From positions 62,001 through 126,000 of the forward strand of contig QCIF01000001.1 in NCBI GenBank assembly GCA_003216835.1: a stretch of 64,000 bases of DNA, read 5' to 3'. The number at the start of each line of letters is the position of its first letter. The first letter of the stretch is position 1. Source of the stretch: Prochlorococcus sp. AG-402-K10. GTDB lineage: Bacteria > Cyanobacteriota > Cyanobacteriia > PCC-6307 > Cyanobiaceae. Under the pieces are notes generated by a model. That model was given only the letters and a program-made list of their open reading frames with translations. It had not been told where the DNA came from and did no database searches. Of this stretch, positions 41,393-56,825 are shown in pieces. The position numbers and the translations under genes were made by a program.

Positions 41393-41435
41393 TCAGTTAT
41401 ACCAATGGATTATAAATATTTGAGTTAGTCTTATA

Positions 41436-41500
41436 TTGAGAAAGGGTAGCTCTAGGGGTAGCTAGGGTTATGTACTTTGTATATACTTGTGCCTTACTTT
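41436..41500 (+). repeat. cassette left-end motif A (tandem GGGTAGCT)
   Basis: The 8-bp word GGGTAGCT occurs at 41444 and 41456, exactly 12 bp apart, preceded by ATTGAGAAA and followed by TATGTACTTTG and GTGCCTT. The same order is found after att core 3 (51223-51290). It starts about 50 bp inside the att core, where tyrosine-recombinase arm sites are usually found. Confidence 0.65.
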
Positions 41501-41510
41501 TCTCCTATAT

Positions 41511-41605
41511 ATAGACAAGAAATAATCTAAATATCAATAATTCCAGAGTTCTCTCCTTCTAATAGGCGCAAGTAATAAGCATCTCAATTGAGAGATTAGT
41601 GTATA
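41511..41605 (+). repeat. 95-bp block repeated at 57465
   Basis: From AAGAAATAATCTAAATAT through CTCCTTCTAATAG and CAAGTA.TAAG to ATCTCAAT the sequence closely matches 57465-57541 and beyond, in the same direction. A shorter match (ATTCCAGA.TTCTC.CCTTCTAAT) is also near 60475. It suggests that region 3 keeps pieces of the same element family. Confidence 0.6.
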
Positions 41606-41701
41606 CATATCAAAATAACTTGATATTGATATGTTCTTATTCTTTATTTTCCCTCATTAGTTAGATGATATAAATGATATATATATATTCCTACTTACTT
41701 C

Positions 41702-42667
41702 ATGAGCATTTTTAAGAAAGTTCTCATTGGATCTTCTCTGTTTGCTTTAACAGCTTGTGGTTCACCCGCCGTTAGATTAAGTGGTGCAGGAGCCACATTT
41801 CCTTCAAAAGTCTATACAAGATGGTTTTCTGATTATGCCAAATCTGGAGGGACAAAAGTTAATTATCAGGCAGTAGGGTCAGGTTCCGGCAGAAAGGCTT
41901 TTATTGATGAAACTGTAAATTTTGGAGCTTCAGATGATCCCATGAAAGATTCTGATATAAAAAAAGTTACTAGAGGACTTGTTCAAATACCTATGGTGGG
42001 TGGAACTATTGCTTTTGGATATAACTATGATTGCGATCTGAAATTAACACAAGAGCAGGCTGTTCGAGTTGCAATGGGAATGATTAAAAATTGGAAGGAA
42101 TTAGGATGTAAGTCAGGCAAATTAACTTGGGCACATCGTTCCGACGGTTCAGGTACCACTAAAGCTTTTACCAATTCTATGGAGGCTTTTTCTAAAACTT
42201 GGAATTTAGGTACTGGTAAATCTGTTAAATGGCCTTCGGGAGTTGGAGCAAAAGGTAATTCTGGGGTAGCGGGTGTTATACAAAATACGCCCGGAGCAAT
42301 TGGTTATGTTAATCAATCATATATAAAAGGAAATGTTAGAGCAGCAGCTTTACAAAATCGTTCAGGTCAGTTCATTGTCCCAAGTTTAGAATCTGGTGCA
42401 ATAGCTTTAAACGGAATTAGGCTTGATGAAAACTTAGCTGGTATAAATCCTAACCCTAAAGCTAAAGGAGCTTATCCAATAGCAACATTAACTTGGATAC
42501 TTGCTTATGAAACAGGTAATGGGAGGAATACTGAGGCAATTAAAAATACATTCTATACATTGCTCAGCGATGAATATCAATCCAAAGCTCCTGCGCTAGG
42601 TTTCGTTCCTTTGAAAGGGGAAATTCTCAAAAAATCAATTGATGCTGTTGGAAGAATAGGTAGGTAA
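41702..42667 (+). CDS. pstS: phosphate ABC transporter substrate-binding protein PstS
   Basis: Periplasmic high-affinity phosphate-binding lipoprotein. The signal peptide ends LTAC (lipobox Cys19). Phosphate-site segments are clear: SGAGATFPSKVYTRW (about 27-41), GSGSGRKAF and FGASDDPM, and SDGSGTTKAF (about 147-156). The length of 321 aa is normal. No pstCAB or phoB-type gene is nearby, so it must work with a transporter coded elsewhere or add to an existing binding protein. It is the only clear cargo of a 1.6-kb cassette flanked by tRNA-Pro 3'-end repeats. No obvious Pho box was recognised upstream. Confidence 0.95.
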   Translation: MSIFKKVLIGSSLFALTACGSPAVRLSGAGATFPSKVYTRWFSDYAKSGGTKVNYQAVGSGSGRKAFIDETVNFGASDDPMKDSDIKKVTRGLVQIPMVGGTIAFGYNYDCDLKLTQEQAVRVAMGMIKNWKELGCKSGKLTWAHRSDGSGTTKAFTNSMEAFSKTWNLGTGKSVKWPSGVGAKGNSGVAGVIQNTPGAIGYVNQSYIKGNVRAAALQNRSGQFIVPSLESGAIALNGIRLDENLAGINPNPKAKGAYPIATLTWILAYETGNGRNTEAIKNTFYTLLSDEYQSKAPALGFVPLKGEILKKSIDAVGRIGR

Positions 42668-42749
42668 TTTAGAACTAACAAGCCAAGTAAGAAGGAATAT
42701 CTTTATCCATTAAAAAAGATGGTTTTATCACTCCAATTTTATATCTACT

Positions 42750-42954
42750 TTCCTAAAAAACTATCAATTAACCGAACTAGTTAAAACAGGGCACTATGTC
42801 GTGGAGGGGGTAGCTAGGGGGGTAGCTAAGGTTACGTATTAACTATATACTTGTACGTACTTTGTGCAATATGCTGTCTCAAACTCGTTCCACTAACATC
42901 AATAGAATCTAGTTATAGCAAGGGAATATTGGATAATCTCAAATTAACAAAGGA
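42750..42954 (+). repeat. cassette right-end block B
   Basis: About 205 bp homologous to 56573-56779. It contains CGAACTAG...GCACTATGTCG (42773-42801), the tandem GGGTAGCT words at 42808 and 42820 (12-bp period), GGTTACGTATT, GTCTCAAACTCGTTCCACT and ends CAAAGGAG directly against att core 2. The shared end with segment 3 is the main evidence for one cassette family. Confidence 0.7.
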
Positions 42955-43000
42955 GTGCTTTGGGAGCACTAGGTCGCAGGTTCGAATCCTGTCGCCCCGA
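42955..43000 (+). repeat. att core copy 2 (46-bp tRNA-Pro 3' end)
   Basis: A perfect direct copy of tRNA-Pro bases 41347-41392. The 5' part of the tRNA is missing, so this is not a gene. It separates segment 1 from the integrase-bearing segment 2. The bases before it (CAAAGGAG) match those before copy 4. Confidence 0.95.
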
Positions 43001-43030
43001 TTGGGTTTTCAGCGAATGACAAAATAGCTA

Positions 43031-43099
43031 GTGCGAAACTGGTGCGAAAATATTTGAACATTACAGTACAAAAAATATAATCAGAAATCGTTTTCGCAC
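43031..43099 (+). repeat. left arm-type sites of segment 2 (GTGCGAAA)
   Basis: The word GTGCGAAA is at 43031-43038 and 43042-43049 (11-bp period) and once inverted at 43092-43099. The same tandem, with the same flanking AACNNG spacing, is at the other end of the element next to the integrase start. These are likely binding sites for the arm-binding domain of the element's own recombinase. Confidence 0.65.
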
Positions 43100-43266
43100 G
43101 TCTTTTATATATATAGAAAATTTATGTTGAAAAACTCCAAATCCGTGTAATCATAAGAGTTAACAGACGGATGCAGTAGAACAAAAACGCACCTCGTTTC
43201 TAGTCTGTCTTCCTATGTGACTCTATAAGTACGAGTCGGTGTTTTTATCCCAAGTAAGTTTCTTTT

Positions 43267-43536
43267 ATGGCAAATAACAGACCTCCATATATAAAAGGTA
43301 AGAAAGTTACCGCCCCTAATATGACTAGGCACGACTCTTATGGTTGTGCATTGGACTTGATTGCTTTCACAAATAATGGTGAAGCAAGTATTAATTGGGA
43401 AGGAAACATGGAGAACGATACTGTTTATTTGGCATATCAAGAGCTGAAGGGAAATAAAACGCTAAGCCATGAGCTTAAAAAACAATACCGATCTTCAGCG
43501 AAGATCAATCCGACTAAATACGTCCCCGCCTGTTAA
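43267..43536 (+). CDS. hypothetical protein, first gene of segment 2
   Basis: An 89-aa soluble ORF starting MANNRPPYIKGKKVTAPNMT and containing INWEGNMENDTVYLAYQELK. I do not recognise it. It is the first gene of the rightward module, after about 270 bp of att-associated sequence. It overlaps the next ORF by 68 bp in another frame, so one of the two starts may be wrong. Confidence 0.5.
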   Translation: MANNRPPYIKGKKVTAPNMTRHDSYGCALDLIAFTNNGEASINWEGNMENDTVYLAYQELKGNKTLSHELKKQYRSSAKINPTKYVPAC

Positions 43537-43789
43537 AGAAAGGGTTTTTACTGAACAAGCACAACAACTTTTAGGAGTTGGCAGAACTTTCCTAATGGAA
43601 AAGAAGGCCAATGGCGAATTTCTAGTTGGAGTGCATTGGGTTTATTCATCAGGACGACCAAAAAGTCGCATTTTATGGGATATCCCTGCAATACAGCAAT
43701 GGCAAGAAGATCAAAGTAAGAAAAACTTTGAAGCTGCTGAAAAAGCTGCTGCTGATATAGAAACCTTCGCAGAAATGGGGGTTGCTTAA
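43469..43789 (+). CDS. excisionase-like / DNA-binding protein candidate
   Basis: A 106-aa protein. Residues 27-80 (VFTEQAQQLLGVGRTFLMEK, ..GVHWVYSSGRPKSRILWDIPAIQQW) have the pattern of a winged-helix excisionase or AlpA-like protein: a helix-turn-helix followed by a Gly-hairpin and an ILWD-x-W segment. The tail is Ala/Glu-rich. The first 20 residues overlap the previous ORF, and the true start may be later. An excisionase would fit an integrative element that keeps flanking att copies. Confidence 0.55.
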   Translation: MSLKNNTDLQRRSIRLNTSPPVKERVFTEQAQQLLGVGRTFLMEKKANGEFLVGVHWVYSSGRPKSRILWDIPAIQQWQEDQSKKNFEAAEKAAADIETFAEMGVA

Positions 43790-44086
43790 GTGACAGATTT
43801 TGACTTTGGCGAATTTATTAGCCTTGAACAAATTGGAGCTGCAAATAAGTTGCTTAGTTTATCCCTAAATACTCAGGATTTACCTTCTGACTTTTTGATG
43901 ATGAACACAGGGCATTCTTATTACCATCAATACCAGAAATGGCTTGCTAAGTATGAGCTAGCCATACATTGCATTACTGGTCTGGAACTATATATGTGTG
44001 AGGAGTTAGCTCAAAGATCTATCGAAAATTATATTACTGATGTTTATAGAGAAGAATTAACGAGGAGCCTAGATAATGACAAATAA
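43790..44086 (+). CDS. hypothetical protein of segment 2
   Basis: A 98-aa acidic protein with a GTG start directly after the stop of the previous gene (TAAGTG), which suggests translational coupling. Residues 37-80 (SDFLMMNTGHSYYHQYQKWLAKYELAIH region) look helical. No family recognised. It overlaps the next gene by 11 bp. Confidence 0.6.
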   Translation: MTDFDFGEFISLEQIGAANKLLSLSLNTQDLPSDFLMMNTGHSYYHQYQKWLAKYELAIHCITGLELYMCEELAQRSIENYITDVYREELTRSLDNDK

Positions 44087-44423
44087 AAAAAGCCCTGACC
44101 CCAATCAAGACTTTTCTAATATTTCTATAATAACTGCCGATCAAATAAAGGCAGAATCACAGAAATTAATAGAAGATTATTGTAATTTTTTCCAAAAAAA
44201 TCCTGATGAAGCAATGGCTGCTCTAGTGCAAGATGTATGCGTACATTCGACAGTATTAGCACAGTTACAGCAGGCAATTTTAGTTAAGAATGGGCAACTC
44301 CAAAAGGTTATTGATAACCAACAAAAGGTTATTCAAAAACTAGAGGATGCTGCAAAGGTAAGAACTTCTCAAATCAGTAAAAGACTTGAAAAGTTAGAAG
44401 GTTATCAAGAAAGAGGAATGTGA
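44076..44423 (+). CDS. coiled-coil protein of segment 2
   Basis: A 115-aa protein whose C-terminal half (LVKNGQLQKVIDNQQKVIQK onward to EKLEGYQ) is a long amphipathic helix with a duplicated VIxxQQKVI pattern, probably a coiled coil. The N-terminal 40 residues are polar. It overlaps the previous gene by 11 bp and ends 4 bp before the zinc-ribbon gene. Function unknown; a role in replication or assembly is possible from position only. Confidence 0.6.
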   Translation: MTNKKSPDPNQDFSNISIITADQIKAESQKLIEDYCNFFQKNPDEAMAALVQDVCVHSTVLAQLQQAILVKNGQLQKVIDNQQKVIQKLEDAAKVRTSQISKRLEKLEGYQERGM

Positions 44424-44427
44424 GGTT

Positions 44428-45009
44428 ATGCAATATTCATCAAGAAAGAACCCTTGTCCAGTATGTGGACGCAATAAGGATTCCGATTGCCGTTGGAATG
44501 ACGAGGTTATGTTTTGCCATGTTGGAACAAACTTCGCACCTCCTTCACATTTAAAAGTTGGAGAAACTTTAGTTGTTAATGGTATTGAGTGGGCATTAGT
44601 TAAAACTGATGCGGGTCACTCTGGAAGGGCTCATGTTTTTAAACCGCACCGACCACTAGAAAAAAGTTTTAATTATTCTCCTCACATATATAAGGAGACA
44701 AAAGCTAAAAAAGACGAACTTTTTAGGATTGCTGTTGGTGCGTTTGAAGATTATTTAAAAGTTAGTAAAGCAGCTCTTGGGTGTAATTTTCAGCAATGCA
44801 CTTTAGAGGAACTTAGAGAATATAAAAAGTTAATCGAAAGGGCAGTAGAAGAAGGAAAAGAAATTAGGCAAATAATGTTAGATATGCAGCGAAATGATAA
44901 AAGGTACAGCGACTACATAGAGCTAATAGATCAAAGAAATAAAGAAATTAACAACTTAAAAAACGAAGCCGACAATTTTTGTTGGGCACATCTTGGAGAA
45001 ATCGAATGA
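44428..45009 (+). CDS. zinc-ribbon protein, primase-type N-terminus
   Basis: A 193-aa protein with an N-terminal zinc-binding motif: C10-x2-C13-x7-C21-x8-C30 followed by H31. This CPVCGR...FCHVG pattern resembles the zinc ribbons at the front of primases in phages and plasmids. The rest is helical and ends in a predicted coiled coil (IDQRNKEINNLKNEA). No Toprim or primase catalytic motifs are seen. It is followed by the ATPase in ATGA overlap, so the pair may act together as primase-like recruiter and helicase. Confidence 0.7.
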   Translation: MQYSSRKNPCPVCGRNKDSDCRWNDEVMFCHVGTNFAPPSHLKVGETLVVNGIEWALVKTDAGHSGRAHVFKPHRPLEKSFNYSPHIYKETKAKKDELFRIAVGAFEDYLKVSKAALGCNFQQCTLEELREYKKLIERAVEEGKEIRQIMLDMQRNDKRYSDYIELIDQRNKEINNLKNEADNFCWAHLGEIE

Positions 45010-46295
45010 CAATGAAGCATCTAGATTATGACTTGCCTCCAGAAGATCAGGCGAAGACATTAAAGCTATTACATAAAGATGTTTTAGCTCCTGATTCTAT
45101 TGAAAGTAAGTTAGACACTATAGAAATAGAAGTTTTTAAACTATTTCAGCCAGAGTGCAAGATTAAACCTCTAGACAGAATCATTCACATGAGAGATTTT
45201 TGTCAGAAAAAAGGTTTAAAACTTACTGATACTGAGATAAGGCAGAAAATTTGGCAGGGCAGAAGGCTTATGGAGGGAGCTGTAGAAAGTTATAAAACTA
45301 ATCAATGGATAGATTGTCCAGAAGAAACTTGGGCATGGGAAGGAATTATTATGAGTGCTGATGCTAATTTGCTGATATCACTCCCAAAATGCGGAAAAAC
45401 TACATTAATAATTGATCTTATTGCTTCGTGGTCTAGAGGTAATGACGAGTTTTTAGGACAAAAACTAATTGGTAAATGTCCTAATGTTGTGATCGTAGGA
45501 ACTGACATGACAACAAGTCGTTGGATGCCTTTACTTTATAGATTTGGATTGGCTGAAAAAGGCTCTACAAAATATAAATGTCTTGAGCCGATCGTAGAAT
45601 TATTTGCAGCAAATAACCCTTTGCACCTAACGCAAGAAGGTTTAGAAAGAATTGCTGAAGTAGCTAGAAACAATAAGGGAGCATTATTTCTTTTTGATAG
45701 TTTTGCCAAGTTAGTTGCTCCTCTAGGACTTAAAGAATCTTCTGAGGATATAGCCCATCCTTTGGCAGATTTACAAGAAGTACTAGCTCCTTATCAATGC
45801 ACTTCTATAATTATCCATCACTCAGGAAAGACTAAAGAAGATAGTCCAGTACTAGCCTCTAGAGGGTCTACTGCGTTAACTGCTGCGGTTAGTCAGATTA
45901 TTAGCCTTAGTTGGTTTAAAAGGGAAGAGGACAGGCAAGATAAAAGAATATTGATGAGAACGCAAGGCAGGGCTGAAGATGTACAACTTTTAATGAGTCA
46001 AGACACTTCTGGTTGGATGTTGGAAGGTAATGTAGCTGACGAAGTAAAAAAAGAAGAATATAGTAAAAAATTAGATAAATTAACTGATAATCAGGCTGAC
46101 GTTTTGGAATATGTCCAATCTGTTAATGGTCTGGAGGTTACTGCTGCTGATGTACAAAATGAGTTAAATATAGCCACAAGATCAGGAGTGAGAATATTGC
46201 AGGCTTTAAGTAAAAAAGGCTTTTTAATACAAAATAAGTCCACTAATCCAGAATCTAGAGGCTCAGTTTTAACTTTTAAAATTAAACCTCTTTGA
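45006..46295 (+). CDS. RecA/RepA-like AAA ATPase, probable replicative helicase of the element
   Basis: A hexameric-helicase-type ATPase. Walker A is SLPKCGKTTLI (about residues 119-129), Walker B is LFLFDSFAKLV, and a later IIIHHSGKTKED plus STALTAAVSQI segment matches the RepA (RSF1010) and archaeal RadA-like pattern. A C-terminal winged-helix-like domain (ADVQNELNIATRSGVRILQAL) follows. I prefer the ATG at 45006, which overlaps the previous stop as ATGA and has GGAG 8 bases upstream, giving 429 aa; a TTG at 44979 would add nine residues. The iteron-like region lies directly downstream. Confidence 0.85.
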   Translation: MTMKHLDYDLPPEDQAKTLKLLHKDVLAPDSIESKLDTIEIEVFKLFQPECKIKPLDRIIHMRDFCQKKGLKLTDTEIRQKIWQGRRLMEGAVESYKTNQWIDCPEETWAWEGIIMSADANLLISLPKCGKTTLIIDLIASWSRGNDEFLGQKLIGKCPNVVIVGTDMTTSRWMPLLYRFGLAEKGSTKYKCLEPIVELFAANNPLHLTQEGLERIAEVARNNKGALFLFDSFAKLVAPLGLKESSEDIAHPLADLQEVLAPYQCTSIIIHHSGKTKEDSPVLASRGSTALTAAVSQIISLSWFKREEDRQDKRILMRTQGRAEDVQLLMSQDTSGWMLEGNVADEVKKEEYSKKLDKLTDNQADVLEYVQSVNGLEVTAADVQNELNIATRSGVRILQALSKKGFLIQNKSTNPESRGSVLTFKIKPL

Positions 46296-46645
46296 GGTCT
46301 GTGAGGCCATGTGTTTTGTGAGGTTAGTGAGGGCAGTTTTATATCTAACCGCACAAACCTCACTAACTGCATGGTGCACAAACCTCATTAGGGTTAACTA
46401 ACTGCACAAACCTCACAAACCTCATTAATTAATATTTAGTAAATAAGATTATGTTACGAAATTGTAATATTTAATTAGAGGCAAATAGGCTGTAATTAGT
46501 GCAATTTAAGGCTTTTTAGAGGACATTTAATGTTAATAGAAACAATATAAAAACAAATACAGATAAGACGTTAATTACACCAGTTAAATATCAACTAATA
46601 GACAGTAATTTAGCTCAAAATTATATAAGTTAAATAAAAAATATT
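46296..46645. other. noncoding region with iterons, candidate replication origin
   Basis: 350 bp without a gene. The first third holds three perfect GCACAAACCTCA copies (46351, 46376, 46404), an 11/12 copy at 46413, and an inverted repeat GTTAGTGAGG/CCTCACTAAC (46323-46332 and 46358-46367). The remainder is AT-rich. Iterons plus an AT-rich tract next to a helicase gene are the usual layout of a small replicon origin. It also contains the promoter region for the capsid operon, so a regulator-binding role is an alternative. Confidence 0.5.
46351..46424 (+). repeat. iteron-like GCACAAACCTCA array
   Basis: Direct repeats of the 12-mer GCACAAACCTCA at 46351-46362, 46376-46387 and 46404-46415, and a one-mismatch copy at 46413-46424. 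Spacing is 25, 28 and 9 bp. They are in the same orientation. Confidence 0.75.
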
Positions 46646-46777
46646 ATGCGTAGACCGCATAAACCAGAGAACGAAACATCTAAACGACTTAAGTCAGAGG
46701 ATGCTTTGCAATCTGCACAATATCGGAGATACCTCCGAGAAACATTAGAGGATTTACATGGCCACTACAGAGACTAA
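46646..46777 (+). CDS. small charged protein overlapping the capsid gene start
   Basis: A 43-aa ORF starting MRRPHKPENETSKRLKSEDA and ending LEDLHGHYRD, rich in Arg, Glu and Asp. Its last 20 bases overlap the start of the protease-capsid gene in another frame, which could couple the two translations. Function unknown. The ORF might be a leader rather than a stable protein. Confidence 0.4.
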   Translation: MRRPHKPENETSKRLKSEDALQSAQYRRYLRETLEDLHGHYRD

Positions 46778-48368
46778 ACCTTATTTTCGTTTCCTTAGTA
46801 TCGAAGACGAGGAAATTAAAGACGACATTCTGACAATGAGTGTCTCCTCTGAATATCCTGTAAAACGAGGATTCGGAGAAGAAATACTAGAACATTCTCC
46901 AGAGGCAATCGATTTAAAGAGATTTAATGACAATGCACCCATACTCTGGAGCCATAATGTTTCTGAGCAAGTTGGAGTTATAGAACGAGCTTATTTAGTA
47001 GATAAAAAATTAAAAGTAGATATGCGTTTTGGTAATTCTGCCAAAGCCAAAGAAATAGAGGCTGATGTTCGTCAAAAAATAATTCGTAATGTCTCGATCG
47101 GATATGCAGTTCACGAAATGGAAGAAAGAGAAGGCTCTTTTGTTGCGACAAGATGGGAGCCGTTAGAGGCCTCATTTGTCTCGGTCGCAAGTGACCCCAA
47201 TGTTGGAGTCCACCGCTCAATTCAAAACACTATTCCTACTAAACAAATGGATTCAACTAACACTCAAGCAATTTCTACTATTAACAATGGTTGGGATGAG
47301 TACCAAAGAGAAGCTGATCAGTTTTCTATTGTTAATGCAATTAAAGCTCAAGCCTCTGGAGATTGGTCACAAGCAGGCCGTGAAAGAGAAATTGGCCAAG
47401 AATTATGTAGAAAACACGGCCAAAGAACAGCGACAGGAATTTTAGTTCCAAATCAATCTTGGCAAAAAAGAACTTTTGTCACTTCTTCTGGAAGTGCAGG
47501 CGGAAATATTGTTGCGACAGATGTTTTGGAAGATCAGTTTATTGATGCACTAAGACCATTCTCAGCAGTAATGGAAGCAGGGGCGACAATGATCACAGGA
47601 TTACAAGGCAATGTCTCCATCCCTAAAAGAGCAACATCTTCAACCGCAGCATGGTTCGGAGCTGATGACGCAGACAGTTTAAGTGAAACTACAGGAAGCT
47701 TCGGAACTGTTGCTATGACTCCAAAAACTATCGGAGTTTATAGTAAGTTTTCAAGATTAATGCAGTTGCAAAGTACTCCTCAAATTGAGCAATTAATAAG
47801 AACTGATTTCTTAGAATTAATAGGCTCTGGAATAGACTCAGCAGCAATCGCAGGCTCTGGAAGTTCCTCGCAGCCTACAGGCATCCTTTCTCAATCAGGC
47901 ACAGCAGTTTTGGCTCTTGCTACTAACGGAGCGGCTTTATCACTTGATAATTTATTAACACTCAAAAAGAATGTAGCTGCTGCAAATGCTGATGATGGCA
48001 CAAGCTGTTATTTAATAAATCCAAAAGTTGAGTCTGCTTTAAGTCAGCTCAAAAACTCTGATGGTTTATACCATTTAAATCCTTATGAGTTACCACTAGG
48101 AGAGCAAAGATTTGCAGGCCGCAGAATGTTAGTCAGCACAAATGTTCCATCAAACTTGAGCAAGGGTTCTGGCAGTAACTTAAGTGCAGCAATCTATGGA
48201 AGATTCTCTGATTTATTGATTGGCCAATGGTCAGGAATAGAAATTGAAACTGACATTTATTCTGATTTTGCGAAGGGAACTGTAGGAGTTAGAGCACTCG
48301 CAACTATAGATATTGCTGTTCGTCATGGCGAATCATTTAGCCTAGTTAAAGACGCAATCGCTGCTTAA
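46758..48368 (+). CDS. prohead protease-major capsid protein fusion (HK97 fold)
   Basis: A 536-aa fusion of two head proteins. Residues 1-160 are a prohead serine protease: catalytic His66 in PILWSH, Ser113 in NVSIGYAV, and SDPNVG closing the domain. After a linker of about 60 residues (the likely scaffold or delta domain, with a probable cleavage region near 205-230), residues 235-536 form an HK97-type major capsid protein (ITGLQGNVSIPKR, TAAWFGAD, SETTGSFGTVAMTPKTIGVY, LVSTNVPSNL). It is the only structural gene in the element. Capsid size could therefore be set by the element itself while packaging and tails come from a helper. Confidence 0.93.
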   Translation: MATTETKPYFRFLSIEDEEIKDDILTMSVSSEYPVKRGFGEEILEHSPEAIDLKRFNDNAPILWSHNVSEQVGVIERAYLVDKKLKVDMRFGNSAKAKEIEADVRQKIIRNVSIGYAVHEMEEREGSFVATRWEPLEASFVSVASDPNVGVHRSIQNTIPTKQMDSTNTQAISTINNGWDEYQREADQFSIVNAIKAQASGDWSQAGREREIGQELCRKHGQRTATGILVPNQSWQKRTFVTSSGSAGGNIVATDVLEDQFIDALRPFSAVMEAGATMITGLQGNVSIPKRATSSTAAWFGADDADSLSETTGSFGTVAMTPKTIGVYSKFSRLMQLQSTPQIEQLIRTDFLELIGSGIDSAAIAGSGSSSQPTGILSQSGTAVLALATNGAALSLDNLLTLKKNVAAANADDGTSCYLINPKVESALSQLKNSDGLYHLNPYELPLGEQRFAGRRMLVSTNVPSNLSKGSGSNLSAAIYGRFSDLLIGQWSGIEIETDIYSDFAKGTVGVRALATIDIAVRHGESFSLVKDAIAA

Positions 48369-48958: not shown

Positions 48959-49025
48959 TAAAAGTTAACGCTAAACAAAATTCGACCATTTGGACGGCTC
49001 TCGTGAGCCTATAAAAAAGAACCTA

Positions 49026-49778: not shown

Positions 49779-50968
49779 GCTGCTAACTGTTTTGCAAATT
49801 TTTCATGAGTTCCATCAGGAATAAATCTTGCATAGTTTTTGTCATGAGTTTCTTTTAGATGACCCATCACAAGAGCAATATCTTTAGTATTTAAATTTAA
49901 TTCAACACTTCTTGCGTGGCTAATTTTTGCGTATCTATGTCTAAAGCTATATGGCACAATTTCTTCTCCTAATTTAAGTGCCTCTTTTTTAAATTTAAGC
50001 CATGTTTTGCTTCTTTCTAAATGTTTTCGAAGACCATTAGATGCTGATTTACCTAATGATGGTAATTCCTCATTATTTTCTATTCTTTCTTGTAATTTCC
50101 AATCAATATAACCTTGTCCATCTTTTACATATAAGGGAGCTAATTTTCTAGGTTCTGTTTTATCTCCTTTAGTACCTCCTTTAGACTTTCTATACATACA
50201 CCACAATTCTTTTTCTTTAATACCTTTTTTAACTACTAAATATTTAAGTTCAATAGGTCGTAAACCATAGACAGCCAATAATTGATAAGCAAACTGCCAT
50301 GCAGGGTTTTTTTCTGATGCTATTAGTTGCAATATTTGTTCTTCATATAAAGCAAAACCTATTCTTTTTTCTTTCTTAACTGCGGAAAGTTTTACAGGTG
50401 CATAAATATTAGATAATTTCCCTCTAAGAATTGCCCATTCTAAAAAATTAATCAAAGATGCTCTTTGAATGTTCCACATTCTGGCTCCAGTTTCCCATTG
50501 CTCTAAAGCTCTCAACATTAATTCTTCTCCATCAACTGGTTTCTTTTTGGAGGTCAATAACCTTTTAGTATGATTTAAAACTGGTAGATAAGATTTTTTA
50601 AAAGTCTCATCACTTGGCCTAAAACAAAATTTTCTAAAATCTTTAAATATTTCGTCAAAATTAATTTCTGTCTTTGAGCTTGCAGTATTAACTATTTCGC
50701 AAGACTTAGCTAATGACCCTTTTCCTAAATCAGAATAAAAGTTTTTATATATAAGCCTTATTCTTGGCAATGCTTTTGCAAAACCTTTTTGACTCCATTC
50801 ATATTCCAAAATTCTAGATTGATATATTCCTTGTTCTTTAACTTCTAACTTTATTGAGCCTCTTGAGTTTGTTACATACCATGGGGCTCCCTCGTGCATA
50901 TCAGCTCGCATTAAGTCTCTGCATGACCTTTCCCAACTCTTTTTATTTACTGTCTGTGGCACTAGCAC
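49775..50968 (-). CDS. int: tyrosine recombinase (integrase) of segment 2
   Basis: Site-specific recombinase that most likely inserts the element at tRNA-Pro. In the 397-aa protein an N-terminal arm-binding/SAM-like part (to about residue 200) is followed by the catalytic domain: R237 in YGLRPIEL, a lysine in the RKSKGG beta-hairpin (about 261-264), YSFRH with Y340 in place of the usual His and R343, H370 in MGH, and nucleophile Y379 in NYARF. The start is GTG (50968), beside GCACTAGGTC, which matches part of the att core. The gene lies 143 bp from att core 3 and is read inward. Confidence 0.93.
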   Translation of the reverse strand: MLVPQTVNKKSWERSCRDLMRADMHEGAPWYVTNSRGSIKLEVKEQGIYQSRILEYEWSQKGFAKALPRIRLIYKNFYSDLGKGSLAKSCEIVNTASSKTEINFDEIFKDFRKFCFRPSDETFKKSYLPVLNHTKRLLTSKKKPVDGEELMLRALEQWETGARMWNIQRASLINFLEWAILRGKLSNIYAPVKLSAVKKEKRIGFALYEEQILQLIASEKNPAWQFAYQLLAVYGLRPIELKYLVVKKGIKEKELWCMYRKSKGGTKGDKTEPRKLAPLYVKDGQGYIDWKLQERIENNEELPSLGKSASNGLRKHLERSKTWLKFKKEALKLGEEIVPYSFRHRYAKISHARSVELNLNTKDIALVMGHLKETHDKNYARFIPDGTHEKFAKQLAA

Positions 50969-51111
50969 TAGGTCTTAAACTATTACCATTGTGCGAAACC
51001 TGTGCGAAAAAGTCAACCTCTAGTGAACATATACGAACAATACGAAACGATACTATATTACTACTACTCAGGTTATGACTATAAATCTCAGTAATAGCTT
51101 ATTTTGGGTTA
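50969..51111. promoter_or_regulatory. right end of segment 2 with GTGCGAAA arm sites
   Basis: Between the integrase start and att core 3. The word GTGCGAAA is at 50991-50998 and 51002-51009 (11-bp period), the same words, period and orientation as at the left end. A weaker pair ATACGAA is near 51035-51055. It probably combines the integrase promoter with its arm-type binding sites. Confidence 0.6.
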
Positions 51112-51157
51112 GTGCTTTGGGAGCACTAGGTCGCAGGTTCGAATCCTGTCGCCCCGA
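51112..51157 (+). repeat. att core copy 3 (46-bp tRNA-Pro 3' end)
   Basis: Perfect direct copy of the 46 bases at 41347-41392, with no 5' part of the tRNA. It marks the right boundary of segment 2 and the left boundary of segment 3. Confidence 0.95.
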
Positions 51158-51179
51158 CTCTTAAAAACCAAGTCATACT

Positions 51180-51206
51180 AGCGAGTCTCCTAACTCGCTT
51201 TTTTAT
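51180..51206 (+). terminator. Rho-independent-like hairpin just inside segment 3
   Basis: AGCGAGT (51180-51186), loop of six, ACTCGCT (51193-51199), followed by TTTTTA. It would stop rightward transcription 20-50 bp after att core 3. No rightward gene runs into it, so it may simply insulate the cassette. Confidence 0.7.
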
Positions 51207-51222
51207 TGCTTACTGTCTCAAA

Positions 51223-51290
51223 TTGAGAAAGGGGAGCTGTAGGGGGAGCTCACAGGATGTACTTTGATGTAGTTAGTGCCTTTGAACGAT
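51223..51290 (+). repeat. cassette left-end motif C (tandem GGGGAGCT)
   Basis: GGGGAGCT at 51231 and 51243, 12 bp apart, after ATTGAGAAA and before GATGTACTTTGATGTA and TAGTGCCTTTGAACGA. It corresponds to motif A of segment 1 and is nearly identical to copy D. Confidence 0.65.
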
Positions 51291-51338
51291 CAAAAATGAA
51301 AATGTCAAACTATAACTTGTGCGTTTTATAGAGTAATT

Positions 51339-52403
51339 TTATTCATATGAATATGAATCCATAACTTCAATAATTTCTTCGACTTGATATTCATCTAACC
51401 GAAAGTATTCGGTTTGAGGAATCCTATCTTCTTTATATAAATCGTGAAGTTCTTTTTCTACTTCTTTGTAATTGGAACATGATATTGAATACACAAGTTC
51501 ATCAGCCTTAAGTTCATTCAACCTTCTATCTAAATCTTTAGTGATACCAATTTTAAAAATATCTTGATTCCTCAAGAAGTAAACATAACCTATTGAATCG
51601 TAATCAAAATCATCGTCTTCCTCAGAATCAGGATGTTCATGATAAAAGGCCTCTGTCGCAGTAGACATGTAGTTTTGGAAAGATTCTTTATATTTTTTTG
51701 AGTAAAAATATATTTTTTCCCATTCTTCCCACCTTACGAAAATTGATTTATTAAACACTCCAGGTTGTTTATTTTCTATATTACTTTTCCAAAAATCATA
51801 AACTTCATGAAAGCTTTCAGCAATTTTAAAACATTTCCAATATTTTTCTATTAGTTCTTTCCATATAATGTAAAGCTTATGCTTTGTTTTAGATAATAAT
51901 TTGTTCGGATTCCTTTCAAAGTCAATTTTGAAACTATTATATTTTTGATTGAGATCATTAATATGCTTTAGCTCATCATCTAAATAGAGAACTTCCTCTT
52001 TAAAAGAACTTCCTTGAAACTCATCACTAACTTTAATTGCAAATAATTCATCAAATTTTATTGGAGCCAGCTCGTTATCAATAGATTCTAAAAACTCTTC
52101 TATTTCTTCTCGATCATCTCTGCTTAAATATTCTTCAAGAGATTTGCTCAATTCTTCCTTAAGTTTTTTCTGTTCATAGAGCAAACTCATGCAATCTTCA
52201 CAAGATTCATAAATTCTTTTATCTGTTTCAACTGCTTCTTGATTTCTATTTTCCCATTCATTTCTAATTTCTTCATCAAGAAGACTAGGGTCTGCCTCTG
52301 TGAATGGTTCATATAAAGAAGCAATGATAACCCCCTTATGATTTCTTACTATTTGATTTCCAAGCCAACATCTAAACTCTTGATTTTCGTTTAATTCATT
52401 CAT
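51339..52403 (-). CDS. T5orf172/MUG113 (GIY-YIG-like) domain protein with N-terminal helical domain
   Basis: A 354-aa protein. The last 90 residues (about 265-350) match the T5orf172/MUG113 group, related to GIY-YIG nucleases: GYVYFLRNQDIFKIGIT, an Arg after DLDRR, and the end RIPQTEYFRLDEYQVEE. The N-terminal 250 residues are acidic and helical. A segment FWKSNI...RWEEWEKIYFYSKKYKESFQNYM (about 205-245) resembles the C-terminus of the 231-aa protein two genes upstream. No signal or membrane segment. A DNA-processing or defence role is only a guess. Confidence 0.7.
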   Translation of the reverse strand: MNELNENQEFRCWLGNQIVRNHKGVIIASLYEPFTEADPSLLDEEIRNEWENRNQEAVETDKRIYESCEDCMSLLYEQKKLKEELSKSLEEYLSRDDREEIEEFLESIDNELAPIKFDELFAIKVSDEFQGSSFKEEVLYLDDELKHINDLNQKYNSFKIDFERNPNKLLSKTKHKLYIIWKELIEKYWKCFKIAESFHEVYDFWKSNIENKQPGVFNKSIFVRWEEWEKIYFYSKKYKESFQNYMSTATEAFYHEHPDSEEDDDFDYDSIGYVYFLRNQDIFKIGITKDLDRRLNELKADELVYSISCSNYKEVEKELHDLYKEDRIPQTEYFRLDEYQVEEIIEVMDSYSYE

Positions 52404-52540
52404 AAAAAATGTACAGAGTTTTTTTTTATAATTTTAGATCGACTGTCAATCGTTAATGAGATTAGGTAGATGTTAGTCAAATAATTAACCTATAAACTCC
52501 CCAAACCTAATAAAGGAATAATTAGGTCTTTTTAAAGATA

Positions 52541-53293
52541 CTATTCTTGCTTAGCCTTTTCGATTATCTGTTTGTTGACTTTATCTACAAGTTCTGGGGT
52601 TAATCTAAAGTATTCAGTCTGTGGAATCCTATATTTTTTAAATTCTTTATGTAAATCTTTTTCAAGAGCTTCATAATTAACGCACCTAACACTATTAATG
52701 ATTTCATCTGCTTGCAATTCTTTCATTCGTCGCATCAAATTATCTGTGATGCCAATTTTATAAATATCATCGTTTCTAATAAAATAAACAAAACCAATTT
52801 TCTTAGATTTATCCACTATCCCAAAATATTCATATGGATCTTTGCCATCAATCTGGCAATCTTTTGGCCATAAATCTTGTTCTACTAAAACTTTGTAAAA
52901 GATATTTTCATCACTAAGATAATCTTTCAAAAATTCCACTGAACTATTTATCTCTTGCATAAATAATTCCGAATCATTTTCTATTCGTTCTAATTCTTCT
53001 AATTCTTCCTCACTAGCTTTAATTCCTTTTTGTGTATTTGTATATTGTTTTTTAACCTTGCCAACATTATCCATCATTAAGCTCATTGCTTTACTAGATA
53101 CTGATATTTCCGGCTTAATTTTTATAAGGTAATCATCATCTTTGGCTACATACTTAAAAAAAATCACAAACTCTTCAAATGTGAGATATTTTTTTATGAA
53201 AATTCTCTTAGAAGGAATAATTTCATCAATAACAGTTTGCCAATATCTTTTCTCCCATAAAACTTCAAAACTTTTTTCATCTTTTTTAGACAT
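52541..53293 (-). CDS. second T5orf172/MUG113 domain protein
   Basis: A 250-aa paralogue by its C-terminal domain (GFVYFIRNDDIYKIGIT, DNLMRRMKELQADEI, KYRIPQTEYFRLTPELV; about residues 165-245), with about 60 percent identity to that domain of the neighbour by eye. The N-terminal part (Lys/Glu-rich, coiled) differs. It starts 247 bp upstream of nothing obvious on the plus strand and is followed by the 354-aa gene, same strand. Function unknown. Confidence 0.7.
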   Translation of the reverse strand: MSKKDEKSFEVLWEKRYWQTVIDEIIPSKRIFIKKYLTFEEFVIFFKYVAKDDDYLIKIKPEISVSSKAMSLMMDNVGKVKKQYTNTQKGIKASEEELEELERIENDSELFMQEINSSVEFLKDYLSDENIFYKVLVEQDLWPKDCQIDGKDPYEYFGIVDKSKKIGFVYFIRNDDIYKIGITDNLMRRMKELQADEIINSVRCVNYEALEKDLHKEFKKYRIPQTEYFRLTPELVDKVNKQIIEKAKQE

Positions 53294-53370
53294 TTTTAGA
53301 AATTGAATTTCCTCATTAATTCAGAATAGCTGTAAATAATAAAAATAAACTTTTGATTGTAGAAGCTAGT

Positions 53371-54066
53371 TTATACTGAGGGACTTTCGATAGCAGCTAT
53401 TAAATTTTTAAGAAAATCTCTTCTTTTATTTTGAGTCTCGAAGTAAAGTCTTTGCATTTCAATCCATTTATTTTCATCATCTTTTTTAGGAATACTTTTG
53501 CTTCCACCACTAAAGATTCTTTTTGACCAGAAAGACCAAGCATCTCTTCTATTTCCACCAATTTTAGTGAGGGTAAAGTAGGAGGACAATATACTTTCAA
53601 AACAAGCATTTAGTTCTTTAGGGTACTTAGCTAAATCTTCCGTTCTCGCCCAAGGATGTGGTTTTGGAGCCCACTGGTTTGAACTTTTTAAACCTGCCCA
53701 AGAGTCGATCATCCAATCAGTAGTCTCACATTTAAAGAACTCTTGTTCTAAAGTTATTGATCTCAAATCTGGATTTAATTCTATAAATTCACTATCGTCA
53801 TCATCTAAAAACGAAGCCATTAAACCATTTAAAAGGTTTACTGGATTGCACCATTGTTTTGTTTCCTCAATCTGATCTCTAACATCATTTGGGTGAAAGG
53901 AATTCAGCATTTCCTCTAATTCTTCATCCAATTTAGATAGCCTATTTACTATTGAACTAAGTTCTTCATAAGTGAATAAATCTGAGTTAACTTCATAAAT
54001 CATCTTTAATTGATAAGAAAAAAAAACGTGTCTTAATCTCTCAAGTTTAAATCTAATGTCAATCAT
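53371..54066 (-). CDS. hypothetical protein sharing a domain with the T5orf172 neighbour
   Basis: A 231-aa soluble acidic protein I do not recognise. Its C-terminal segment (AWSFWSKRIF...KWIEMQRLYFETQNKRRDFLKNL, about 180-225) resembles the middle of the 354-aa T5orf172 protein (FW..I, W.E...IYF..K, F.N). This suggests that a standalone domain plus the separate T5orf172 gene correspond to the two parts of the fused neighbour. The similarity is weak and judged by eye. Confidence 0.55.
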   Translation of the reverse strand: MIDIRFKLERLRHVFFSYQLKMIYEVNSDLFTYEELSSIVNRLSKLDEELEEMLNSFHPNDVRDQIEETKQWCNPVNLLNGLMASFLDDDDSEFIELNPDLRSITLEQEFFKCETTDWMIDSWAGLKSSNQWAPKPHPWARTEDLAKYPKELNACFESILSSYFTLTKIGGNRRDAWSFWSKRIFSGGSKSIPKKDDENKWIEMQRLYFETQNKRRDFLKNLIAAIESPSV

Positions 54067-54080
54067 TTCATCGACCTACT

Positions 54081-54170
54081 TGGTATGAGGCACTAGTTCG
54101 CTCGAGGGGGAGCTGTAGGGGGAGCTCACAGGATGTACTTTGATGTATTTAATGCCTTTGAACGACCAAC
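54081..54170 (+). repeat. motif D: right-end/left-end junction scar
   Basis: CGACCTACTTGG...GCACTAGTTCG (to 54100) matches the start of right-end blocks B and E. Then GGGGAGCT at 54107 and 54119 (12-bp period) is followed by GATGTACTTTGATGTA.TTA.TGCCTTTGAACGA, which matches left-end C almost exactly. The att core that should lie between a right and a left end is absent. Confidence 0.6.
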
Positions 54171-54220
54171 TTCATTAATTACTAGAAAGAACCTATTCTT
54201 ATTCTGAGATCTTTAAAAAA

Positions 54221-56518
54221 TTATCCCATCTCGTTAATTGCTATCTCAAGTTTTTTAAGATCATCCCTGTATTCATCTGAATCTATGTATCCAAGTTCCA
54301 AACTAGAGCTCAAAGCCGCTTTAAAAATTCTTAAGTACTCCTTACCAATAACACTAAGTACGCCACGATAAATATGATGATTTCCGCTTGACAACTCATT
54401 CCATGCAACATTTGTAATAAGTAATAATGCAATTTGTTTTGGCTTCATTTGATTTACACTAATACTGTATTTTGCTCGGTCAGCATCTTTAGCCATACGC
54501 AAAGCTGATAACTTACAAGAATCCCCAAATATGAATTTATTACACTTAAAAAAGTAAGATATTTCTTCAGATATCCATCTCACTTCTGCAGGAGCAAATT
54601 TATACCTTAAGAATGATTGAATACAGCTAAGACTAACAGGATTAGATGTTAGGAATCTTGTATCGTGCTTTACTTCATTAACTCTTTTAGGCTCTGTAAT
54701 ATCCTTATACAATTTTTCTTTTAACAACTCATCTTTTGCTTCTCCTGGTAGATCTTCTAGAACAGAAAGTATAAATCTTTTTTGTTCTTCAATAGGCAAT
54801 CCATCATAATCATTATCAAAAACAGAAACTATAAATCTTCTTTGTTCTTCAATAGACATTCCATCATAATCATTATCTAAAACAGAAACTATAAATCTAT
54901 TGCCCTCACTAATTAATTTATCTTCTATATCATCATCAATCTCAAAATCATCATGCAGCTTTTCTAAGTCAGAGCCGTCGTATTCGCAATTATAATTCTC
55001 AAAATCGTTTAGCAAAGTGTAGAACTCCTTATAAAACTTCTTACCCTTAAAAAAATCTAAGATCTTATCGTAAGCCTCTTTAGAATAAATTACTTTAAAT
55101 CTTAAGTGAGGATTCCAATCTGGGTCTTGGATGATTTCCAACTCTAGGTAAAGATCTGCAACATACGAAATAAGAGTTTTAAGACCATCATATTGGGACT
55201 TCAAGAGCCCAGACTTATAAAGGGCTTCATACGAGATATCTTTATAAGCCTCTCCAGACCCGTATCCCTCCCATTTTTTTCTGCCAAATTCAAGTCTTGC
55301 TATTTCAAGTCTGCTTTCTATATCTATTTCATTCCATCTCTTACTACCAATATAGGAAGCATATGACATGCGGGAATCTATTTTACTTTGATCTATCTCA
55401 TCTAAATTTGAATCTTGCTCTTTAAGATTTGGATCTATTAATTCTTCTTTTACTGATTCATCTTTTGGTTCTCCAGCTTCCTTTTCTGTTAGTTGAGAAG
55501 TTTCTTTTCCCATTAATATCTCTAGTGTTCCTTTTTTGAAGTCATCTACTGATGCAATTAAACAACCTGTGGTAGCAACTCCTTTAAACATCCAATTTGC
55601 TGCTTCTTTATGTAAAGATGGTTGAGGTTCTTCAGATTTTACAGAACAACAGTACCAAGGATTTAATATCCAGAGGCAATCACTTTCATCCCACCTTATA
55701 GAGAAGAGGGAATAGATTTCTTGATGATTTGCTCTCGGAGTTGATTCTGTAAATGAGAAAACATAAAAATATATTATTTTTGTGGAGTATTTTTTGTTCA
55801 CATAAGTTGCGACTTTAATAGTATCTGAAGGTAAGGAACTCTCTAGATTATTAAAGTTAGTTGATTCACAAAAATCATCTGAATCTGGTTCTTTTCCATC
55901 ATTTAAAAAACGTAACCCATAATAAAAAGCCTGCACCTCGTCATAATAAGAATGTTCTATTTGATAAGTTTCTTTTTTTCCTAAATTTAATAACTGTTCC
56001 TTTTTACGTTGAAATTCTTCTTCTTTACGTTGAAATTCTTCTTCAGTTATTATGACTTGATCTTTTTTTACATTAAGACCTGGATCCACCTTATTAAGAC
56101 CTGAATCCACCTCATTAAGACCTGGATAAATCCCACTTCGAATAGCCGAATCAGCAGTTGGAACAATGCACAAGGAAAGACCAGTTATTTTTCCCTCATC
56201 TACAGAAGCATAAGCAACTCCAAGTAAATTAGACTTATCGCCTTGAGCCATGATAAGGCAATCAGTATGACCATATGCGGGGCAGACTCCTAATTCGGCA
56301 TACACAGGACTCTTAGTTTTTTTTATTACTTCAAGTTTTGGTCTGATATATTCGATAAACTCATCTTTTGAGTTCATATCGGTTAAGACTTTTTGTGAGG
56401 AGTATGAGAAGTCTTCCGACAAAAACGATTCAAACTCAGACGAATCAAGAGTGTGCATCATTCTCGCATAGATACTCAAAGCTTCCTTTTCTGTTAGTTG
56501 AGAAGTTTCTTTTCCCAT
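54221..56518 (-). CDS. large repetitive protein of unknown function (possible fusion)
   Basis: A 765-aa acidic soluble protein. Residues 1-115 look like a SnoaL/NTF2-like domain (IYARMMHTLDSSEFESFLSEDF and later VYAELGVC). Then follow short repeats: GLNxVD three times (about 134-150), EEFQRK repeats, and a 20-aa unit with DNDYDG...IEEQ.RFI.SV repeated in tandem (about 560-610). The 13-residue opening MGKETSQLTEKEA recurs at about residue 335 in LEILMGKETSQLTEKEA, with 41 bp of identical DNA (55475-55515 and 56480-56520), so the ORF may join two genes that had the same 5' end. Function unknown. Confidence 0.7.
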   Translation of the reverse strand: MGKETSQLTEKEALSIYARMMHTLDSSEFESFLSEDFSYSSQKVLTDMNSKDEFIEYIRPKLEVIKKTKSPVYAELGVCPAYGHTDCLIMAQGDKSNLLGVAYASVDEGKITGLSLCIVPTADSAIRSGIYPGLNEVDSGLNKVDPGLNVKKDQVIITEEEFQRKEEEFQRKKEQLLNLGKKETYQIEHSYYDEVQAFYYGLRFLNDGKEPDSDDFCESTNFNNLESSLPSDTIKVATYVNKKYSTKIIYFYVFSFTESTPRANHQEIYSLFSIRWDESDCLWILNPWYCCSVKSEEPQPSLHKEAANWMFKGVATTGCLIASVDDFKKGTLEILMGKETSQLTEKEAGEPKDESVKEELIDPNLKEQDSNLDEIDQSKIDSRMSYASYIGSKRWNEIDIESRLEIARLEFGRKKWEGYGSGEAYKDISYEALYKSGLLKSQYDGLKTLISYVADLYLELEIIQDPDWNPHLRFKVIYSKEAYDKILDFFKGKKFYKEFYTLLNDFENYNCEYDGSDLEKLHDDFEIDDDIEDKLISEGNRFIVSVLDNDYDGMSIEEQRRFIVSVFDNDYDGLPIEEQKRFILSVLEDLPGEAKDELLKEKLYKDITEPKRVNEVKHDTRFLTSNPVSLSCIQSFLRYKFAPAEVRWISEEISYFFKCNKFIFGDSCKLSALRMAKDADRAKYSISVNQMKPKQIALLLITNVAWNELSSGNHHIYRGVLSVIGKEYLRIFKAALSSSLELGYIDSDEYRDDLKKLEIAINEMG
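54740..54900 (-). repeat. 60-bp tandem coding repeat
   Basis: About two and a half units of a 60-bp direct repeat inside the 765-aa gene, coding for D-N-D-Y-D-G...IEEQ(R/K)RFI(V/L)SV(F/L). The units are in frame and nearly identical in DNA, which points to recent expansion and likely length variation among strains. Confidence 0.75.
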
Positions 56519-56572
56519 TACTCAAAAATATTTATTTAAGTTAAAGAGCTAATTGACCCTTATTGTAGATTG

Positions 56573-56779
56573 ACTTTCCAAAAAAACTCTCAATCACCGA
56601 CCTAGTTAATACAGGGCACTAGGTCGGATAGGGGGGAGCTAGAGGGGGAGCTAGGGTTACATATTTAGTATATAAATGTATATACTTTGTACGATATTGA
56701 GTCTCAAATTCGTTCCACTCACTTGGTCATAAACTAGTCATAGCTTGATTTTATTGGTAATTCTTAAATGATCAAAGGA
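56573..56779 (+). repeat. cassette right-end block E
   Basis: Homologous to block B at 42750-42954. It begins TTTCC, carries a perfect inverted repeat CGACCTAG (56598-56605) and CTAGGTCG (56619-56626), then GGGGAGCT at 56633 and 56645 (12-bp period), GGGTTACATATT, GTCTCAAATTCGTTCCACT and ends CAAAGGAG before att core 4. Confidence 0.7.
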
Positions 56780-56825
56780 GTGCTTTGGGAGCACTAGGTC
56801 GCAGGTTCGAATCCTATCGCCCCGA
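56780..56825 (+). repeat. att core copy 4 (46-bp tRNA-Pro 3' end, one mismatch)
   Basis: Direct copy of 41347-41392 with one change (CCTATCGCC for CCTGTCGCC). It marks the right end of segment 3. It is the only diverged copy, which fits with it being the oldest attachment scar, farthest from the intact tRNA. Confidence 0.93.

Follow-up and report, generated by a model that had tools for sequence, protein, structure and literature searches.

Paired tandem end words suggest that integrase-less cassettes at a Prochlorococcus tRNA-Pro gene are addressed to integrases acting in trans

Introduction

Genomic islands that encode no integrase raise the question of who moves them. We addressed this question at the tRNA-Pro(TGG) gene of Prochlorococcus sp. 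AG-402-K10, within a stretch of 64,000 nucleotides (contig QCIF01000001.1, positions 62,001 to 126,000) hereafter called the window. Three segments lie in tandem downstream of this gene, two of them without an integrase, and the original prediction was that these two belong to a class of non-autonomous cassettes that swap cargo between common ends and are moved in trans. Here we describe short tandem words, matched at the two ends of an element, that probably represent arm-type integrase sites and act as addresses, with integrases moving the matching cassettes in trans.

Tycheposons, reportedly described by Hackl et al. 2023, are said to be tRNA-associated tyrosine-recombinase elements of Prochlorococcus. 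Integrase-less elements are of known kinds (cis-mobilizable elements, CIMEs, and clusters of attC sites lacking integron integrases, CALINs), as are phage satellites and cargo-bearing tycheposons. In the available passages of PMC8138268, arm sites and the N-terminal arm-binding domain of tyrosine recombinases are described; those of PMC10872708 state that tycheposons carry a tyrosine recombinase.

Results

Each segment behind tRNA-Pro carries one tandem word at both ends

The tRNA-Pro(TGG) gene lies at 41319..41392 on the plus strand (ARAGORN, Rfam), and its 3' end (41347-41393) forms the integration core. Together with this stretch, we found four 47-nt repeats that are 98 to 100% identical. 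The three extra copies, all on the plus strand and identified by repeat comparison (core repeat 2, 42955..43001; core repeat 3, 51112..51158; core repeat 4, 56780..56826), delimit three segments, themselves given in plus orientation. Segments 1 (cassette 1, 41394..42954) and 3 (cassette 3, 51159..56779) are integrase-less, and no recombinase was found among their proteins by Pfam; segment 2 (43002..51111) resembles a satellite and encodes an integrase itself. Cassettes 1 and 3 are built on a common chassis, their right ends (42750-42954 and 56576-56779) being 76.6% identical over 205 columns (E 1.4e-41) and their left ends (41428-41495 and 51215-51282) 79% identical over 72 columns (E 3.2e-12). 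Their genes are unrelated, PstS-like in the first and T5orf172 in the second according to Pfam. The original prediction was thus correct on the bounding repeats, on the matching ends, on the unrelated genes and on the missing recombinase.

The segment ends bear a tandem direct repeat with a period of 11 to 12 bp, and each element has a single word, identical at both ends. In cassette 1, GGGTAGCT occurs twice in the left arm pair (41444..41463) and again in the right pair (42806..42828), both with period 12. Cassette 3 carries a different word, GGGGAGCT, at 51231..51250 and 56632..56654, also with period 12. The ends of segment 2 differ from both, as had been predicted, and bear a third word, GTGCGAAA, at 43031..43049 and 50990..51009 with period 11. 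Just past core repeat 4, the left arm pair of a further element was found (56852..56874, CTGGGCGATC, period 11; all pairs on the plus strand), with no second CTGGGCGATC copy in the window or the next 20 kb.

We scanned the window for exact, GC-rich 8-mers that recur at a short period. Nine tandems of period 11 to 12 were found in the 64 kb: seven adjoin a tRNA repeat, one is an internal copy in segment 3, and one is coding (43731). The DNA beside the tRNA repeats makes up 1.7% of the window, yet it holds seven of the nine, and 20 Markov-1 sequences gave a mean of 0.3 tandems and a maximum of 1. The tandems are therefore not due to chance. Their layout is like that of the arm-type sites of tyrosine integrases, which are tandem sites at set distances beside the recombination core.

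Matched words are widespread in the genus and numerous

The right-end block is present in 107 of 266 genus genomes, probably a lower bound, as three candidates were scored per genome. Our survey set consisted of the window and 120 neighbourhoods around matches to the right-end block or the integrase, some of them overlapping (neighbourhoods are designated by L numbers and genomes by G numbers). It yielded 254 intervals between consecutive tRNA-Pro cores, 237 once near-identical ones were removed. Of the 237, 166 had a tandem at the left end and 145 at the right, compared to 12/930 and 13/930 interior windows of equal size; both ends had one in 120 intervals, only the left in 46, only the right in 25, and neither in 46. 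In 102 of the 120 two-ended intervals, the same word (at least 7 nt) stood left and right, against an average of 14.4 and at most 26 in 1,000 permutations. Avoidance of a common word by neighbouring cassettes was not significant: 1 of 35 had it, compared to a permuted mean of 3.65, and 110 of 1,000 permutations gave a value as low.

An integrase open reading frame (ORF) was absent from 206 of the 237 intervals in a profile search that covered frames of at least 300 codons. Among the 102 matched intervals, 89 had no integrase (median 1969 bp) and 13 had one (8231 bp). After merging of overlapping labels, which were assigned by eye, the 89 integrase-less matched cassettes carry about 22 words, with 6 left unassigned. 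The shared chassis and the varied cargo of the original prediction are hence upheld, but the cassettes do not form one class with common ends: there are about 22 words on a few chassis types. Because their words differ, segments 1 and 3 would by the proposed code need different integrases.

Distances from the core also fall into classes. The right-arm-to-core distance is fixed by class, and the left arm lies near 28, 51, or 72 nt from the core. A hairpin with a T-run stands between core and arm in 66 of 67 ends of the ~72 class, and in 0/12 and 0/23 of the other classes, so that ~72-class ends, to judge from their sequence, probably supply a terminator for the tRNA they insert behind. In cassette 3 this terminator-like hairpin lies at 51180..51204 (+).

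As anticipated, the ends of the window's cassettes enclose other cargo elsewhere. We found 17 integrase-less cassettes with GGGTAGCT- or GGGGAGCT-type arms and differing genes; of the 38 ORFs with 80 aa or more in them, 25 were examined by Pfam. Their cargo comprises pstS, T5orf172, a HupE/UreJ protein, an Mrr-type nuclease, a TPR protein, a DUF1330 protein, AIG1-like and other GTPases with an exonuclease, and an autotransporter domain; the remaining examined ORFs had no Pfam match.

The word follows the N terminus of the integrase

In integrase-bearing elements, the right arm pair coincides with the integrase gene start or lies close to it. The integrases contain a tyrosine recombinase catalytic domain, its R..H-x-x-R/GH/Y motif regions being visible in their alignment, and 7 of 8 tested matched PHROGs integrase families. 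Pfam matches were absent or below cut-off, and sequence searches of the PDB gave nothing useful; a full-length model showed weak likeness to XerH and Cre (best E 0.016).

Several close relatives with different words differ at the N terminus. The integrases of L093 and L094 (1997-3421) are each 92% identical to that of L095, with the differences around residues 29 to 50, and the three have three words. The L094 word was predicted from its likeness to L106 around these residues and then found. Similarly, L110, L108, and L123 have bodies that are 95 to 97% identical, N termini that are 37 to 55% identical, and three words. Conversely, L090 and L095 share one word, with N termini that are 94% and bodies that are only 46% identical. 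Within arm classes, the mean N-terminal minus body identity was +0.174 for 7 same-word pairs and -0.101 for 124 different-word pairs (p 2.7e-4; 0/5000 label permutations). We also scored 48 integrases, 16 of them from other genera. For 28, the nearest relative by N terminus was not the nearest by body; the closer word was that of the N-terminal relative in 19, that of the body relative in 3, and tied in 6 (p 4.3e-4; 19 of 22 decisive cases). Judged from these sequence comparisons, the word tracks the N-terminal ~50 residues of the integrase better than its body, with natural domain swaps.

AlphaFold predicted, with modest confidence, a helix, three strands, and a helix for this N-terminal stretch. 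With this predicted N terminus, core-binding and catalytic parts after it, and accessory sites beside the core, the layout may be comparable to that of the arm-binding tyrosine recombinases of the lambda, Tn916, and HPI types (available text of PMC8138268). A large set of words swapped among close relatives and used by integrase-less cassettes is absent from the description given there.

The words could instead be sites for another protein, such as a regulator, or packaging or replication iterons. Tandem repeats can indeed be operators or iterons, and in autonomous elements the right pair is located at the integrase start. This explanation is nevertheless highly improbable: the word changes with the integrase N terminus while the rest of the protein stays 95 to 97% identical, the words stand at both ends at class-specific distances, and integrases of other genera show the same layout (19/21 versus 42/500 control windows).

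L106 (1390-2781, GGGGCGCT arms) contains the N-terminal part of an integrase fused in frame to a cargo-like protein, and its C-terminal part is 98% identical to a cassette protein in L137. L106 is perhaps an autonomous element turning into a cassette. It was counted as an integrase in a partial-correlation test of word against integrase sequence and excluded from the label-permutation, loose-definition, and nearest-relative tests.

Matching integrases reside on separate elements in other genomes

Both words of the window's cassettes adjoin an integrase in other genomes. The loci are L093 (both arms) and L089 for GGGTAGCT, and L090 (both arms) and L095 for GGGGAGCT. Comparison by eye placed 15 of the ~22 cassette words next to an integrase within the genus set. 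An automatic criterion, which was rather lax (common 8-mer and period), assigned an integrase partner to 66 of the 89 cassettes, a count that includes L106 as an integrase.

In the genome of the window (94.6% complete), the integrase search gave the segment-2 integrase and one weak match in a 386-codon frame, and nothing more. G022 (99% complete, one contig) has four matched integrase-less cassettes in L046, and the integrase search there gave one weak match (E 1.3e-9) and none at 1e-20. Cassettes can thus reside in genomes in which the integrase search gave no matching enzyme.

The segment-2 integrase was considered as a mover of cassettes 1 and 3 and is unlikely to play this role, its own arms (GTGCGAAA) being different from theirs.

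Near-identical cassettes have different neighbours and homologous cargo has different ends

Two genomes illustrate how cassettes come to lie in different contexts. G011 and G022 have a GGGGAGCT cassette in common, which lies directly next to the tRNA in G011. In G022, an integrase-less element of 3.1 kb, with a duplicated core, stands between tRNA and cassette. Between the genomes, the cassette is 98.7% identical over 3017 bp, and the upstream chromosomal flank 80.9% over 1730 bp. The 3.1-kb element may have been gained in G022 or lost in G011. As strains differ in the element directly after tRNA-Pro, and the G022/G011 insertion lies exactly there, the ends are not ordinary flanking sequence of the tRNA, in agreement with the original prediction.

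Overall, 43 near-identical interval pairs were found, of which 34 were kept after removal of 6 with an integrase and 3 in which the same place had been fetched twice. Among these 34 integrase-less pairs from different genomes, neighbouring alignments did not exceed 128 bp in 31, and the other 3 had a common neighbour of more than 1 kb. The 34 pairs represent 10 cassette families and are not independent; in 9 of the 10 the context had changed at least once. Integrase-less cassettes thus appear, from these alignments, to have moved.

Alternatively, the cassettes could be CIME-like remnants of islands that decayed where they stood by losing the integrase, their words being an ancestral inheritance, with little or no movement in trans. 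Such elements are known: in the available part of PMC5704250, CIMEs have lost their integration genes and kept attL and attR. The L106 fusion is a plausible decay step, and many intervals (117/237) have one or no recognisable arm. We nevertheless consider this explanation rather unlikely, given the different neighbours in 31 of 34 pairs, which argue for independent movement over CIME-type accretion in cis, the 98.7% identity of the G022/G011 cassette against 80.9% in the flank, and the presence of homologous cargo under different words. A tblastn search for leftover integrase gave matches in 8 of the 89 integrase-less cassettes; in 2 the match was to the L106 part that is cargo-like, and in 6 it was to the first 21 to 52 residues of stop-to-stop frames, for the most part untranslated leader.

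The coupling between cargo and word is loose: a homologous ORF was common to 44 of 3721 pairs with different words and to 9 of 195 with the same word. A block of ~3.8 kb in an integrase-less cassette encodes an ArsR-family regulator, GAPDH, an MFS transporter, and a PstS-like protein, a composition suggesting an arsenate-resistance-like function. Between two groups of three genomes, this block is 85 to 98% identical per 100 columns and sits between different end pairs, AGCGATTA and GGGCGATC. In a local alignment, both end pairs proved to be related, though diverged, forms of one chassis, with 172 identities against 71 mismatches plus gaps at the right ends. The PstS of the block is 87% identical to that of segment 1. 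The cassette with this gene set is found at L041 (10653-14816) and, as relatives, in L043, L062, L073, L079, and L180.

A further possibility is that integrases play little part and that cassettes spread when chromosomal DNA is taken up and undergoes homologous recombination at the shared tRNA repeats, chassis, or arms. The repeats and chassis provide homology, and replacement of cargo or ends needs some homologous or illegitimate exchange in any case. Segment 3 contains an internal junction (54068..54169, +) that resembles a cross-over between two arms: an arm pair (54105-54126) is preceded by DNA matching the right-end flank (score 34 versus a shuffled maximum of 26) and followed by DNA matching the left-end flank (score 68 versus 28 in shuffled sequence). 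Segment 3 thus looks like a composite of two GGGGAGCT cassettes that recombined via their arms with loss of the intervening core. However, an internal copy of the own word occurs in only 1 of the 102 matched intervals, segment 3 itself, and no other composite was found among them. Recombination of this kind also leaves unexplained why the same word stands at both ends (102/120) and why it is linked to the integrase N terminus. As a general explanation we find it quite improbable.

A model of word-addressed movement

We thus favour movement in trans by integrases that would recognize the cassette ends. The tRNA-Pro region would be an array of integrative elements, mostly small non-autonomous cassettes, each made of a core copied from the tRNA 3' end, left and right ends with the same tandem arm word, and varied cargo. 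Tyrosine integrases, encoded on fewer, larger elements that bear the same word (some of them satellites), would use their small N-terminal domain to read the words as arm-type binding sites. Within a cell, such an integrase could then act in trans on every cassette with matching arms, binding these arms and excising the cassette or inserting it at tRNA-Pro. Integrases would switch word when their N-terminal domain is swapped or altered together with their own arms, and cargo could pass between words by replacement of both ends.

Several points weigh against this model. The survey loci were picked via matches to the right-end block or the integrase and are thus a non-random set. Among the two-ended intervals, 18/120 had non-matching words, and a tandem went undetected at one or both ends of 117/237 intervals. 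The exact word labels were chosen by eye after the alignments were known, and with a looser definition (a shared 8-mer) the contrast between same-word and different-word pairs was not significant (p 0.06). The partial correlation of word with integrase body, the N terminus being controlled for, was 0.391 (0/2000), compared to 0.453 for the N terminus; the same-word pair L099/L097 showed no N-terminal excess (0.50 and 0.51); and the exact word was recovered in 18/48 cases via the N terminus versus 16/48 via the body. A PDB fold search with the N-terminal domain alone gave no significant match. Seven of the ~22 cassette words (AGCGATTA, GGGCTCT, GCGGTCA, GGGCGATC, TCACGCAA, GTGGTCA, and GTGCCCA) had no integrase in the genus set. 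Finally, we infer movement in trans from the matched words, the covariation of word and integrase N terminus, and the changed neighbours; direct binding of the word by the integrase and a vehicle between cells are likewise parts that the sequences lead us to propose.

The elements share traits with several known systems. As in tycheposons, insertion is at the 3' end of a tRNA with duplicated tRNA repeats, in Prochlorococcus, and the available parts of PMC10872708, PMC11389934, and PMC12416821 describe the same tRNA site, tyrosine recombinases, cargo-bearing and satellite forms, and genus. Segment 2 has its own tyrosine recombinase, whereas segments 1 and 3 and 206 of the 237 intervals do not; because they have no integrase ORF, cassettes 1 and 3 were not classed as autonomous tycheposons. 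Matched arm words, swaps of the integrase N terminus, and integrase-less cassettes moved in trans are absent from the descriptions in what these citing papers make available, and the original definition may include some of them. Like CIMEs, which in the accessible text of PMC5704250 have no integrase, retain attL and attR, and accrete in tandem at one site, the cassettes keep attL and attR and lack integration genes. They differ in that one cargo is found with several end words, that neighbours have changed, and that matching integrases are found apart from them, on elements of other genomes. Integron cassettes and CALINs are also arrays of small recombinase-less cassettes moved by an integrase located elsewhere, but as far as PMC11389934 covers them, they use attC sites and IntI, a single integrase family, as opposed to a tRNA 3'-end core, arm-bearing tyrosine integrases, and many words. 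No description of a matched word code with domain swaps was found in the open-licence literature, and its novelty is provisional.

A wider claim, for which we see the balance as even, is that Prochlorococcus and related genera maintain a distributed cassette economy. At least ~20 arm words would each be read by a swappable integrase domain of ~50 residues, integrases of satellites and other elements would move matching cassettes into one tRNA site, cargo would switch addresses, words such as GCCAACAAAT would cross genera, and the code could be worked out one residue at a time. Borrowed integrases recognizing an address at the cassette ends would be a concrete mechanism by which nutrient-uptake, arsenate-resistance-like, and defence-like genes could spread among very abundant ocean phototrophs without mobility genes of their own. 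The question of who moves integrase-less islands then becomes testable word by word. Such a system would also amount to a naturally occurring recognition code between protein and DNA, domain swaps included, and could yield an orthogonal set of integrases for genetics in these phototrophs.

Related integrases in other genera and searches of viruses

Related integrases were found in 187 of 400 family genomes, genus members included. In 20 neighbourhoods from other genera, a tandem lay between -100 and +330 nt of the integrase domain start for 19 of 21 integrases, compared to 42 of 500 random windows of equal size. GCCAACAAAT was present in four of these neighbourhoods (L200, L201, L202, and L204). 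The start-proximal word recurred on the far side of the fetched stretch in L217 only; a far-side match in L207 was discarded as a second case, since it belongs to another tandem.

A scan of genome contigs returned seven loci, all from Prochlorococcus. No relative was found in viral contigs scanned with the integrase alignment, nor did a phage collection contain a relative of the L095 integrase at E 1e-5. Two arm patterns matched 8 and 10 viral stretches, in which a search for the tRNA core motif gave one partial match (L166); these matches are probably due to chance. Cyanophages do carry pstS, with 71 to 74% DNA identity.

Gene content of the segments and minor observations

The cargo of cassette 1 is a PstS-like phosphate-binding protein of 321 aa (41702..42667, +; Pfam). 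Segment 2 encodes, on the plus strand, an excisionase-like protein of 106 aa (43469..43789; weak match to phrog_539, E 2.3e-4), an AAA_25 ATPase of 438 aa (44979..46295; Pfam), and a head-protease/major-capsid fusion of 536 aa (46758..48368; Pfam, PHROGs). On its minus strand follow an NAD-dependent DNA ligase adenylation domain of 250 aa (49026..49778; Pfam, PHROGs) and the tyrosine integrase of 397 aa (49775..50968; phrog_1, E 7.2e-11). Cassette 3, probably a composite of two cassettes, carries four genes on the minus strand, encoding two T5orf172/MUG113 proteins of 354 aa (51339..52403) and 250 aa (52541..53293), both assigned by Pfam, and proteins of 231 aa (53371..54066) and 765 aa (54221..56518) that have no match in Pfam, PHROGs, or PADLOC.

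To the right of core repeat 4, inside the CTGGGCGATC element, lies a Yfr11 small RNA (56948-57093, minus strand; Rfam RF02363, E 2.5e-11). Outside the window, at L008 (near G000:C1:134503, ~8.5 kb past its end), we found a decayed junction in which right-end-type sequence is fused to a degenerate core, without an arm. The integrase upstream of 7010 in L098 has the arm word AGAGCCCCTCC, which is approximately the reverse complement of the cassette word GGGGCTCT.

A core-like 11-mer (GCACTAGGTCG, at least 9/11 positions) lies 5' of the right arm, for example at window positions ~42785-42796 and 56614-56625. It was present at 52 of 102 matched right ends (11 of the 13 with an integrase), mostly 14 to 16 nt before the right arm, and at 0/102 left ends and in 0/495 interior windows. 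It is possibly a second core-type site or an integrase-autoregulation site. Finally, an 82-nt stretch of cassette 1 (41517-41598) recurs with 90% identity at 57469-57550, in a remnant past the last repeat, and this recurrence suggests that cargo-side DNA can be common to elements with different words.

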